Shown here: in pieces, positions 36,461 to 44,231 of the stretch
How positions within the stretch are numbered: position 1 is the first letter of the stretch
Layout of the letters: every line of letters begins with the position of its first letter
NCBI GenBank assembly: GCA_023150845.1
Contig: JAKLKD010000021.1
Coordinates: 1 to 45,753 of the forward strand
Origin: Myxococcota bacterium
GTDB lineage: Bacteria; Myxococcota_A; UBA796; CAJQPC01
DNA: 45,753 bases
Direction: 5' to 3'
Position numbers and translations under genes: made by a program
Notes under the pieces: model-generated
What the model saw: the letters and a program-made list of their open reading frames with translations, nothing else
Told to the model about the DNA's origin: nothing
The model's database searches: none

Positions 36461-39337
<2,877 letters not shown>

Positions 39338-39475
39338 CTTGGCTCTCCGGTGGGCTATTCATTGAACAGATCTCATCTTAGCGGTTTCGATCTGGGCACG
39401 CATCGGTGTCTGTCCGAACGACCCGCCTACATCCCCTCGACGCACGGCGCCTCTGCGCCCCACGGAGCCCCTCTC

Positions 39476-40747
39476 ATGCGCTCAAACGCCTTGCTCCCCG
39501 CACTCCTCGCCGTGACGGCCGTCGCCTGTGACGGCAAGGAGGCCCCCCAGGACTCCTCGGCCGCCGCCGCGGTCACTTTTTACCGGGACATGGAGCCGGT
39601 GATCGTCGAGAAGTGCGGCTCCTGCCACTCTCCTGGGGGCATCGGCCCCGGCGAATGGACCAACCCGGAGACGGCCAAGACCAACGCCTTCTTGATGAAC
39701 GTCTACGTCCAGGCCGGGAAGATGCCCTACCCCGCCGCGGACCCGACCTGCCGCGACTACAACGGCAGCCACCGCCTGAGCCTCACCGACGCCGAGAAGG
39801 CCATGTTCCAGGCCTGGGTGGACGCCGACGCGCCCCTGGGTGACGAGGCCGACCGCACGCCCGGCCTGAGCGTCCCCGACCTGAGCCTCACCGACACCGA
39901 CATCACCCTCACCCCCTTCGAGTCCCACGAGGTCTCCGTCGGTGAGGACCGCAACGAGTACTGGTGTGTGGTCCTCGACAACCCGCTGACCGAGACCCGC
40001 TACGTCACCGGCATCGACGTCGACGTGGACAACCGCCAGGCCGTCCACCACATGCTCCTCGCCATCGACTACGGCGGCGACGCGGGCATCGAGTACGGCA
40101 CCGACGGCAAGCAGCGGTCCTTCGCGTGCCCTGACCCCATCGTCGAGTCCGACTGGATGCTCCTCCACGCCTGGGCGCCGGGCATGGAGGCCGTGGAGTT
40201 CCCCGAGGGCGTCGGCCTCAAGGTGGAGCCGGGCCAGCAGCTCGTCCTGCAGTACCACTACTACGACGATGACCCCGCCACGCCCATCGGCACGGACCAG
40301 TCCGGCTACCGCCTGCGCACGGCGCCGAGCGTGGACGTCGAGGCCCAGATGAGCGCCGTGGGCCCCACCAACTTCAACATCACCGCCGGGGACCCGGCCT
40401 ACAGCGCCGCGGACAAGATCCGCAACGAGTGGTCCGACATCACGATCTACGGGATCTTCCCCCACATGCACCTGCTCGGCAAATCGATGCGGAGCTGGAT
40501 CGGCAAGAGCGGTGAGGAGGACGTCTGCCTGATCGCCGGTGGTTACGACTTCGGCGCGCAGATGACCTACATGTACACCGAGCCGGTGACCTGGCCGCGC
40601 AACTGGAACCTCAACGTCGAGTGCACCTGGGACAACTCCGCGGAGAGCCCCTACCAGTACAACGATCCGCCCCAGAACGTGACCTTCGGCGAGGGCAGCG
40701 ACGAGGAGATGTGCTTCGCGCTCTTCTACTTCGCCTTCGCGGGCTGA
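39476..40747 (+). CDS. Copper type II (PHM/DBH-like) monooxygenase lipoprotein with cytochrome c domain
   Basis: 423 residues from the ATG at 39476 (GGAG 8 bases upstream). Signal MRSNALLPALLAVTAVAC with lipobox. An N-terminal cytochrome-c-like domain (~30-125) carries CGSCH near residues 46-50 and a GKMPYP loop offering a Met ligand. The rest matches copper ascorbate-dependent monooxygenases: the His pair in AVHHMLLAI (His190, His191), LQYHYY (His~260), FPHMHLLG (His~329, His~331) and DEEMCFALFYF with the candidate Cu-ligand Met (~411). All expected copper ligands seem present. The haem domain may feed electrons in place of ascorbate. Its substrate is unknown. Confidence 0.85.
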   Translation: MRSNALLPALLAVTAVACDGKEAPQDSSAAAAVTFYRDMEPVIVEKCGSCHSPGGIGPGEWTNPETAKTNAFLMNVYVQAGKMPYPAADPTCRDYNGSHRLSLTDAEKAMFQAWVDADAPLGDEADRTPGLSVPDLSLTDTDITLTPFESHEVSVGEDRNEYWCVVLDNPLTETRYVTGIDVDVDNRQAVHHMLLAIDYGGDAGIEYGTDGKQRSFACPDPIVESDWMLLHAWAPGMEAVEFPEGVGLKVEPGQQLVLQYHYYDDDPATPIGTDQSGYRLRTAPSVDVEAQMSAVGPTNFNITAGDPAYSAADKIRNEWSDITIYGIFPHMHLLGKSMRSWIGKSGEEDVCLIAGGYDFGAQMTYMYTEPVTWPRNWNLNVECTWDNSAESPYQYNDPPQNVTFGEGSDEEMCFALFYFAFAG

Positions 40748-40824
40748 GCCTCGGCGAGGCCCTGCTCTGATCTGGCCGATCCGTCAAGGACCAGAAGATG
40801 TCCGCCGAGGGGGCGATCTCTGAC

Positions 40825-40852
40825 TGGACACCCGTTCAGGTACTGTTAAACT
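40825..40852 (+). promoter_or_regulatory. Promoter of the CsrB-like RNA
   Basis: TGGACA (40825-40830), a 16-base spacer, then TAAACT (40847-40852). Each hexamer is close to the vegetative sigma consensus. Transcription would begin near 40859-40861, exactly where the first hairpin of the RNA starts. Confidence 0.65.
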
Positions 40853-40859
40853 GAGGGTG

Positions 40860-41213
40860 TGAAGAGGGCGCGCCAAGGACGGCACGCTCCCTTCTCCGGT
40901 CCAAGACGGAGGCCCCCCGCAGGACGCGAGGGCTTTACAGGACGGACCGCCCCTCACCCTTCGCCGCTGCTCAGGATGACGCGGCGAGGGGCGCAGGGAC
41001 CGCCCGGCTGGACGCCAGGCCCCTCAAGACGAGCCCGACGCCGGACGCGGCGGGCACCAGGACGGCGTGGCGCCTACAGGACGAGGCGCGTGGGCTCGGG
41101 ACGAGCCTCAGGATGAGTCGCGCCCAGGCAGACCAGGAGGTCGGCGTGGGTGACCAAGATGGTGAACGGGTAACAGCGCGCGGCGTAGGGCCGATCCTCT
41201 CGGGGGTCGGCCC
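40860..41213 (+). ncRNA. CsrB/RsmZ-like CsrA-sequestering RNA (candidate)
   Basis: From the predicted start, short stems present GGA in the loop one after another. Clear ones have loops at 40875 (AAGGAC), 40921 (AGGAC), 40968 (TGCTCAGGATGAC on a 6-bp CGCCGC/GCGGCG stem), 40994 (CAGGGAC), 41009 (TGGAC), 41042 (CGGAC), 41059 (AGGAC), 41076 (ACAGGACG on GCGCCT/AGGCGC), 41098 (GGGAC on GGCTC/GAGCC), 41110 (AGGAT) and 41135 (AGGA on GACC/GGTC). CAGGACG or CAGGATG occurs exactly six times (40920, 40938, 40972, 41058, 41077, 41109). The E. coli CsrB repeat is described as CAGGA(U/C/A)G. A GC-rich hairpin GGGCCGA/TCGGCCC (41188-41213) could end it, though no T tract follows. Total length of about 350 is similar to CsrB. 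No convincing ORF lies here. Confidence 0.8.
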
Positions 41214-41250
41214 TCGACCCGTTGGCGCGCAGCACGGCAGACCAGGCGGT

Positions 41251-42210
41251 CTACTCGGGCAGCTCACCCTCCTCGATGACCGGCGGGGTCTGATCCCCGG
41301 GCAACCACAGGGGCAAGATCCCCTGCAGCGCGTCGGGCAGAGACTCCGGCACCTGACCCGGGGGCGACCACCCCGGCGTGTCGTCCATCGGTCGAGCCGG
41401 GATCGGCCCGGCGTAGGCCCGGCGGCTCCAGTCCCGAGGCGCCGGGCTGCGGCCACCCACGGACACGCTCAGGCCGAGCTGCGGCATGTAGACCTCCGGG
41501 TCGAGGCGCGCGACGCCGGAGACCACGCCGACGCTCACCTCGGCGTAGTCGAGCACCATGGCCGCGCCGAAGCTCGCCTCCACCCACCACCAGGGCGGCG
41601 TGCCCTCGGGGTCACCCCCGGCGATGGGCACGATGGACGACCGGCTCAGGCGGAGCTGCGCGGGGAGCATCACCGCTCGTTTGGGGAAAAACACCGCCGC
41701 GACGCCGATGTGGGGCGCCAAGGTCGCGTAGCTGTACCTCCGCGGCTCCTGCACGGTGACCGAGCGGCCGTCGTCGTAGACCACCAAGGCGCCGTCATCG
41801 TAGACCTCAAGCTGGGCGGCGTACCCCGCCTCGCTGTAGGTGGCGCCGAGGCCACCCGTGGCGCGAATGAGGAGCTCGTCGCGGCGCAGAGCCGTGTAGG
41901 CGAGGGTCGCGCCGCCCAAGGGGCCGTCGGCCTGGGCGCCGCCGGAGAGCCGCAGGTCGAGGTCCTGGGTGAGGCCGACCCCGGCGTAGCCGCCGAGGGG
42001 GCGGGTGAGCCCGAGGCTCGAGTACTGCTCTGCTGGCGTCGCCCGCTGAATCGTCAGCCCGGCGCCGACCTGCCCCGCGTCCAGGGGCGTGACGAGCTGG
42101 GGGCCGGGGACAGGGGGTGGGTGGGCGAAGTAGATCGGCCCGCAGCCCGTGGCGATGGCGAGGTACACGACGGCGCCGAGGCGCATCGCGCTCCAAAGGG
42201 GGTGCAACAT
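41251..42210 (-). CDS. Outer-membrane-type lipoprotein of unknown function
   Basis: 319 residues from the ATG at 42210 (GGAG 5 bases upstream; a second ATG at 42186 is also well placed). Signal ends in AIATGC. The mature sequence alternates short amphipathic strands and Gly-rich turns (YAGVGLTQDLDLRLSGGAQADGPLGGATLAYTALRRDELLIRATGGLGATYSEAGY; WWVEASFGAAMVLDYAEVSVGVVSGVARL), as in small beta-barrel or lipid-binding outer-membrane proteins. The acidic, Pro-rich C-terminus ends beside the 3' end of the CsrB-like RNA, transcribed towards it. No family recognised. Confidence 0.75.
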   Translation of the reverse strand: MLHPLWSAMRLGAVVYLAIATGCGPIYFAHPPPVPGPQLVTPLDAGQVGAGLTIQRATPAEQYSSLGLTRPLGGYAGVGLTQDLDLRLSGGAQADGPLGGATLAYTALRRDELLIRATGGLGATYSEAGYAAQLEVYDDGALVVYDDGRSVTVQEPRRYSYATLAPHIGVAAVFFPKRAVMLPAQLRLSRSSIVPIAGGDPEGTPPWWWVEASFGAAMVLDYAEVSVGVVSGVARLDPEVYMPQLGLSVSVGGRSPAPRDWSRRAYAGPIPARPMDDTPGWSPPGQVPESLPDALQGILPLWLPGDQTPPVIEEGELPE

Positions 42211-42277: not shown

Positions 42278-44023
42278 TCAGCCGCAGGTGGCGGTGACGA
42301 TCGCCTCGTCGACGCCAAAGCGGCGCAAGAACTCCCGGCGCTCTCGGCGCATCCGCGCCACCCAGGCGTCATGGTCCGCCGCCCGGCCCTGGGCCACGAA
42401 GAGGCGGCGGGGCTGGAGGATCTCCGCGGGCACGATCTGGAGCAAGGCGGCGTTCTCCGGGGCGTCTACATCGACGACCTCGTAGCCGAAGTCGGGATCC
42501 TTCACCCAGCGCACCTGGCCGCTGAGCATGGCCTCCAGCATCGCGCTGGAGTGGTTGATCTTCACCTTGAGGCCGACGCCCTGCTTCACCGAGCGGCCGT
42601 CACCGCCGACGAAGCCCGTGTTCATCATCCACAGGTCCACGCCGGGCATGGTCTCGGCCAGGGCCGAGAAGCGCCGCGCCTGGAGCCCGTGGGACAGGGG
42701 GAAGAAGGGCTGGGTGAACGGAGAGCGGGTCTTGCCGGTCTCTTTGCCCGCGGCGGAGGTCTTCGTCGTCTCGCCGAGCATAAAGAAGCCCGCGGCCTGC
42801 TCCGGCGAGGTGAAACGTACGAGGCCCGGCGTGGCGGCGTCGGCGCCCTCGTCGCGGTTGAGGATGCCCATGCTGCGCACCGGGGGCAGGCGGGTGAGGT
42901 CCGCGGCGTCGTCCACGGCGGCGAAGGGGATGATCGAGCGGCCGTTCTCCGTCCACTTCACGAAGTCCCAGCCGTCCATCGGCGCGCCGCGTTCGTCGAG
43001 GAGCTCGTCGAGGTCGTGCAACCCGGCGGCGTAGGCCGCGACCTTCTCCGGGTCGGCGCCGGTCTTCACGAGCACGTCAGCGAGGCGCGCGACCTCCTCG
43101 GGGCTCAGCGCGCCCTTGGAGAAGTCCGCCACGCCGTCCTCGTCGAGGTAGACGTTCTCGGTCCAGGCCCGGGGGTCGAGGGTGCCGCGCCAGATGACGG
43201 GCTCCGTGGCCTCCGAGAGCCCGAAGGTCTTGGCGAAGCAGCCGTTCTCGGTGACGGAGAGCTCGCCGCCGGGCCACAGCGCGACCATGTCGTCCTGCAC
43301 GGGCTGGGTGAGGCTGCCCTGCTTAGAGAAGGTCGTCGTGGTCTTCCCGGTGCCAGAGAGGCCCATGATGGTCATGGTGACGTCGCGCTCGCCGACGTGC
43401 ACGAGCTTGGCCCCAGCGTGCAGGACGAGGCCGCCCTTGGCGTAGACCTGGGCGCAGAGCATCCGCAAGGCGCCCTTCTTGGACTCGCCGAAGTAGTCGG
43501 GGCCCAAGATGTAGGTGGTCATCTCGTCGAGATCGACGACGATGGCCTGCTCGCCGGGCATGCCCTCGGCGGCGCAGTCCGGGGTGTAGATCACCCGAAA
43601 GTCGGGGGTGAAGCCCTCTCCCGGGGTCTCGGCGGGGAACGCGAGCACCTGCTGCATCCCGGCGATGTTCGCGGCCTCGACGCTGTAGAGCCACTGCACC
43701 GACGCCGCCCGCGGCCCGATGCCCAGCCGCCCCTGAACCTCGATGACCTGCCCGCGGGCCTCCAAGAACGCCCGCTGCCGCTCGATGAGCGCCTGCGCCC
43801 GGGCAGGATCGATGAGCTGGGCCGAGTACCGCGCGGCGTCCTCCGGGGTGCCGATGACGTAGGTGTACTTGGCGACTCGGGACTTGTTCCGGCTCACCTT
43901 GTTGAGCGTGCCCGTCGACGAGCGCGCCACGGCGGGGGTGTGCGTCATCGCCAAGGCGCGCAGGGCGTCCTGATCGGGGTTCCGGTGGACCTTGATAGAC
44001 GGGGGCAGCGGGCGGTGGGGCAT
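42278..44023 (-). CDS. pckA: ATP-dependent phosphoenolpyruvate carboxykinase
   Basis: 581 residues from the ATG at 44023 with AAGGAG 5 bases upstream. It decarboxylates and phosphorylates oxaloacetate to PEP, the first committed step of gluconeogenesis. Visible are the kinase-1a loop MGLSGTGKTTTTF (ATP form), HVGERDVTMTIMGLSGTG, LHAGAKLVHV with metal ligands, QDDMVALWPGG (kinase-2 Asp pair) and WMMNTGFVGGDG near the C-terminal domain. It is somewhat longer than the E. coli enzyme (540) because of an N-terminal extension of about 40 residues. Gene product acts in the cytoplasm; PEP and glycogen metabolism are classical Csr targets in E. coli. Confidence 0.92.
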   Translation of the reverse strand: MPHRPLPPSIKVHRNPDQDALRALAMTHTPAVARSSTGTLNKVSRNKSRVAKYTYVIGTPEDAARYSAQLIDPARAQALIERQRAFLEARGQVIEVQGRLGIGPRAASVQWLYSVEAANIAGMQQVLAFPAETPGEGFTPDFRVIYTPDCAAEGMPGEQAIVVDLDEMTTYILGPDYFGESKKGALRMLCAQVYAKGGLVLHAGAKLVHVGERDVTMTIMGLSGTGKTTTTFSKQGSLTQPVQDDMVALWPGGELSVTENGCFAKTFGLSEATEPVIWRGTLDPRAWTENVYLDEDGVADFSKGALSPEEVARLADVLVKTGADPEKVAAYAAGLHDLDELLDERGAPMDGWDFVKWTENGRSIIPFAAVDDAADLTRLPPVRSMGILNRDEGADAATPGLVRFTSPEQAAGFFMLGETTKTSAAGKETGKTRSPFTQPFFPLSHGLQARRFSALAETMPGVDLWMMNTGFVGGDGRSVKQGVGLKVKINHSSAMLEAMLSGQVRWVKDPDFGYEVVDVDAPENAALLQIVPAEILQPRRLFVAQGRAADHDAWVARMRRERREFLRRFGVDEAIVTATCG

Positions 44024-44138
44024 AAGAACTCCTTCAAGCTCGCCATAGCGCAGGATCGGGGCGGCCACCAGCGGAGCGGCGGACCGGGCCCTGATCCAGA
44101 TCGCTCCTTGGTGTAGCCCTGGCCCTGGGGGGGGGTTC

Positions 44139-44167
44139 TTGACGGCTCCTGGCGCCTGCGGTAGCGT
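44139..44167 (+). promoter_or_regulatory. Promoter of the right-edge gene
   Basis: TTGACG (44139-44144), a 17-base spacer, TAGCGT (44162-44167), a near-consensus vegetative promoter starting near 44174. A run of nine G (44127-44135) ends 3 bases before the -35 box. The leader to the ATG at 44232 is ~58 bases. Confidence 0.6.
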
Positions 44168-44231
44168 GGTCAGCGATGGGCCGCCGACCAGAGACCAGGT
44201 CGGGCCCAAACATGAAGGTGCGCGCGGGCCG

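Follow-up and report, generated by a model that had tools for sequence, protein, structure and literature searches.

The promoters of the Pseudomonas RNAs RsmX, RsmY and RsmZ are controlled by GacA and carry an upstream box of the TGTAAG-N6-CTTACA type. For CsrB, the consensus of the repeated motif is CAGGA(U/A/C)G (PMC7652899). According to reviews, RNAs that sequester CsrA are essentially a gammaproteobacterial feature, and the antagonist described in other bacteria is FliW (PMC7652899, PMC13407953). The statement in an earlier note on this DNA that no CsrA-sponge RNA is known in Myxococcota is in line with the literature that we found, whose coverage is incomplete (PMC13407953, PMC7652899). 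Here we describe a unit within a window of 45,753 nucleotides (the whole stretch of DNA analysed) which, judged by its sequence, is very probably a CsrB-type, CsrA-titrating sponge RNA of this organism.

The unit occupies a gap that is flanked by a copper type II monooxygenase-like gene (39350-40747, plus strand) and by a lineage-specific gene on the opposite strand that ends at 41251 (Table 1). Its 5' end was inferred from the -10 box and its 3' end from the terminal hairpin, which is strong and conserved but lacks a T run, and an intrinsic-terminator scan gave no match at the unit. Elsewhere in the window, and two genes downstream of the RNA, an ATP-type PEP carboxykinase gene (PF01293) is found at 42278-44209 on the minus strand; in E. 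coli, gluconeogenesis is classically under Csr control, although any link between this gene and the RNA would be speculative. A large protein with many DxDGD-type repeats is encoded at 36461-39337 on the minus strand, with long, probably spurious open reading frames on the complementary strand.

Between 40859 and 41220 of the plus strand, CAGGA(C/T)G occurs in six exact copies (at 40920, 40938, 40972, 41058, 41077 and 41109) and NNGGAYG ten times in total, the remaining four being AAGGACG (40875), CTGGACG (41008), CCGGACG (41041) and CGGGACG (41097). This recount returns the six copies and four near-copies listed in the earlier note, and places them far above dinucleotide-shuffled sequences, namely, six CAGGAYG in 362 nt against a mean of 0.12 and a maximum of 3 (0 of 5000 shuffles reach six), and ten NNGGAYG against a mean of 2.05 and a maximum of 8 (5000 shuffles). 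The unit also holds three AGAYG near-copies (40902, 41025 and 41155) and one CCAGGAGG at 41133. The motifs were said to lie on the strand of a good promoter, and both points hold: the opposite strand has no heptamer at all, and a sigma-70 scan found one TGGACA-16-TAAACT arrangement with an extended -10 TG, compared with none in shuffled sequences. Plain GGA, in contrast, is not enriched in the unit (14 copies against 12.2 expected), so that it is the specific heptamer that stands out. When the whole window was scanned with a triple pattern, two clusters were obtained, both inside the unit, with 0 expected; the same pattern occurs four times in the 7.1-Mb genome, twice at this locus, and the reversed control gave 0.

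Loop placement of the motifs would require paired flanks, and we examined this by re-dealing the 3' flanks among the motifs. The observed pairing goes beyond permutation in the window (p = 7e-4) as well as in a relative of the same genus, G001 (p = 5e-4). Immediately closing stems of at least 3 bp flank six GGA motifs, against a shuffle mean of 1.0 and a maximum of 5, a count that 0 of 2000 shuffles reach, and the mean unpaired probability of GGA is 0.71 against 0.47 in shuffles (0 of 100 reach it). The earlier note had proposed about eleven small stems with GGA in the loop: their loop placement and their number of closed motifs exceed those of shuffled controls, but hardly any stem closes directly around the motifs at 40875 and 40938. 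Likewise, thermodynamic folding favours the exposure of GGA, although the total folding energy of the unit is ordinary for its composition (z -1.19). E. coli CsrB, included as a positive control, showed the same profile in each of the motif and loop statistics applied, more strongly.

The conservation evidence comes from two draft genomes, both of the same genus. In G001 (contig JAKLKE010000086.1, Myxococcota MAG.430) the unit is found at 87% identity in a matching gene setting. None of the 46 positions of the promoter block differ between the two genomes, compared with 6 of the 19 bp just upstream. The GGA cores changed at 2 of 39 sites, one being a GGA to AGA change in the first motif and the other lying in an AGA variant, whereas 7 of the 13 motifs differ in the base after the core, each exchange being between two of C, T and A; this base is the position left free in the CsrB consensus CAGGA(U/A/C)G (PMC7652899). 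All 60 pairs of the 12 hairpins, in whose drawing both sequences were consulted, persist in G001, two of them through a double (compensatory) change and one through a G-C to G-U change. Paired sites change less (5 of 120) than other sites (33 of 179; p = 1.7e-4). Covariation itself is weak, being reached by 121 of 500 shuffle controls, as two sequences cannot give strong covariation.

Table 1. Predicted features of the sponge RNA locus, in window coordinates.
Feature	Coordinates	Strand	Description and basis
Predicted non-coding CsrA-sponge RNA	40859-41213	+	~355 nt; motif enrichment, hairpin statistics, conservation pattern
Promoter block	40809-40854	+	TGGACA 40825-40830, 16-nt spacer, TG-T-TAAACT 40847-40852; sigma-70 scan and two-genome comparison
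GGA hairpin, loop AGGAC	40915-40932	+	Every pair kept in both species; folds alone
GGA hairpin, CAGGATG at tip	40962-40986	+	One G-C to G-U in relative; two-species pairs and folds alone
GGA hairpin, loop TGGAC (relative: AGGAC)	41004-41019	+	Two-species pairs; folding alone
AGA-variant mini-hairpin, loop AAGAC	41024-41032	+	2 bp, weak; two-species pairs
8-bp GGA hairpin, loop CGGAC	41033-41055	+	Identical in both species; folding alone
GGA mini-hairpin, loop AGGAC	41057-41065	+	2 bp, weak; two-species pairs
6-bp GGA hairpin, ACAGGACG loop	41070-41089	+	z -3.29 alone; two-species pairs
Two adjoining GGA hairpins, loops GGGAC and AGGAT	41093-41116	+	Two-species pairs; folding alone
GACC-AGGA-GGTC hairpin	41131-41142	+	A-U to G-C compensatory pair in relative; folding alone
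AGA-variant hairpin, loop AAGAT	41153-41163	+	3 bp; two-species pairs
11-bp terminal hairpin	41188-41213	+	Terminator-like, without T run; one compensatory pair; z -3.55 alone

A partner for such an RNA is encoded in the same genome, where the earlier note had advised looking for csrA. The single csrA found (G000:C271; PF02599, 48 bits) encodes a protein of 83 aa whose alignment with E. coli CsrA spans residues 1-44 and includes Leu4 and Arg44, both key RNA contacts. G001 has csrA in the same gene setting, which argues against bin contamination. The genome search found no fliW, and none of the fliW-positive genomes of our phylum sample belongs to this order. Position 55 of this CsrA is not Asn, the residue proposed for FliW contact (PMC13407953). 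In the csrA leader (L001, 1462-1506 of G000:C271) CAGGAT and AAGGAG are identical in both same-genus species, and they are missing from the family member G003, where no sponge was detected. Since the CAGGAT site is not in a loop in the minimum-energy fold, we limit ourselves to suggesting this leader as a candidate autoregulatory site.

The unit would thus encode a non-coding RNA of ~355 nt with about a dozen small hairpins, whose loops present (C)AGGAYG or close variants. This RNA may bind several copies of the single CsrA and, by titrating it, relieve its grip on mRNA leaders, with that of csrA itself as a likely target. Transcription is expected from the conserved promoter-like block, presumably in response to a signal driving this promoter.

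AGGA resembles the Shine-Dalgarno core, and the repeated GGA loops might belong to a structured RNA that serves a partner other than CsrA, be it as a ribosome or anti-Shine-Dalgarno decoy or through an Hfq-like or other RNA-binding protein. We regard this as improbable, because the repeated unit is CAGGA(C/U/A)G, free exactly where the CsrB consensus is free, its copies sit in loops, and csrA is present without fliW; in a ribosome decoy, the closing C-G and the free base that follows GGA would both be unnecessary. We give slightly less weight still to a long structured leader, trailer or repeat array devoid of a trans regulatory role. Such an element would fit an ordinary folding energy and a G+C content of 73%, which makes small hairpins cheap, but the downstream gene lies on the opposite strand, the invariant promoter block stands immediately 5' of the unit, and the unit, whose motif copies are not tandem repeats, is found a single time in the genome.

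Open frames do exist in the gap, namely, an 85-aa ORF (40859-41116, plus strand) and a 161-aa ORF (40971-41456, minus strand), and either could in principle be a short protein gene. However, in G001 the plus frame runs into a stop and is disrupted by single-base gaps, and such frame-shifting gaps run through the whole unit, which argues against coding; the irregular motif spacing also differs from that of in-frame coding repeats matched elsewhere. We consider a protein gene the least credible of these readings, with hardly any weight. As the earlier note maintained, the gap contains no credible gene, and the related genome preserves the hairpins and not an ORF.

Homologues of the proposed sponge RNA were sought well beyond the locus. 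In Rfam the unit has no match at the gathering threshold or at E <= 10 other than chance hits, the thresholds of CsrB, CsrC, RsmX, RsmY and RsmZ not being reached, and no GacA/UvrY box (TGTAAG-N6-CTTACA type) lies near the locus, even allowing 3 mismatches; assignment of the unit to the Rfam CsrB/Rsm families is therefore not supported. BLAST of the unit against 58 relatives returned one true homologue, of the same genus, and a close copy of the flanking monooxygenase gene, used as a synteny marker, is kept only in the same-genus genome. A covariance model of seven hairpins, run over 60 genomes of the order, singled out only G000 and G001 (E 1e-34 and lower); the next matches (E >= 6e-4, including G003) were rejected, as they lack GGA arrays. 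Pattern searches covered the order (CAGGAHG triple) as well as 13 csrA-bearing relatives and 41 csrA-positive members of the phylum without a fliW match (related patterns). Among the matches listed, most could be assigned either to repeats coded in frame (of QDG, thrombospondin type-3 and similar types) or to tandem arrays: L129 (G003), the best-scoring locus among relatives outside the genus, reads as such a coding repeat, and L196, promising at first, seems to code on the opposite strand for a cysteine-rich stretch. Neither BLAST nor the covariance model nor, among the matches listed, the motif patterns found a homologue outside the genus, and G003, which has csrA and no detected sponge, is only ~73% complete. 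Sponge RNAs can, we infer, drift fast in sequence, so a failure to find homologues is no proof that the function is missing elsewhere.

Two tandem arrays were recorded in csrA-positive, fliW-negative genomes of another family, the same for both. In L170 (G080:C68, ~1495-1615) a 25-bp unit with CAGGATG (GGCAGGATGCC) adjoins an RNase Z-like gene, and in L173 (G084:C15, ~1400-1860) a 34-bp unit contains CAGGATGGAATCGCC; in each array all three phases are represented among the copies.

The best reading of these results is a CsrB-type sponge RNA that evolved independently or diverged beyond recognition, as the earlier note had anticipated, and it fits the missing Rfam match and the confinement of detected homologues to one genus. 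We further think it likely that this lineage of Myxococcota, which retains CsrA in the absence of FliW, evolved a CsrA-sponge RNA of its own, separately from the CsrB/Rsm RNAs of Gammaproteobacteria, in which case RNA titration of CsrA would have evolved at least twice. Across 379 genomes of the phylum, csrA was found in 137 and fliW in 79; only two fliW genomes lack csrA among the matches listed, which leaves about 60 csrA genomes without fliW. A sponge RNA would explain, in a way open to testing, what keeps CsrA in check in such a lineage. The unit may also serve as a template for finding other sponge RNAs missed by Rfam models, and it would place a sponge-type regulator in a phylum for which we found no description of one in the literature.

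Compared with known sponge regulators, with which it is probably convergent, the unit comes closest to CsrB/CsrC of E. coli and other Enterobacterales. Both are intergenic and similar in length (~355 nt against 369 nt), with many CAGGA(U/C/A)G copies in hairpin loops and a terminal hairpin, and the unit has a predicted promoter of its own. It differs in its phylum, in having neither an Rfam match nor a T run after the terminal hairpin, in its G+C content (73% against 51%), and in its fewer copies of GGA (14 against 22) and CAGGAHG (6 against 9). With RsmX, RsmY and RsmZ of Pseudomonas, which titrate CsrA-family proteins, it shares GGA hairpins, but not the GacA box or an Rfam match. The FliW-CsrA antagonism of Bacillus, Campylobacter and Geobacter solves the same problem, that of restraining CsrA, with a protein antagonist that also occurs in many other Myxococcota and is absent from this genome.
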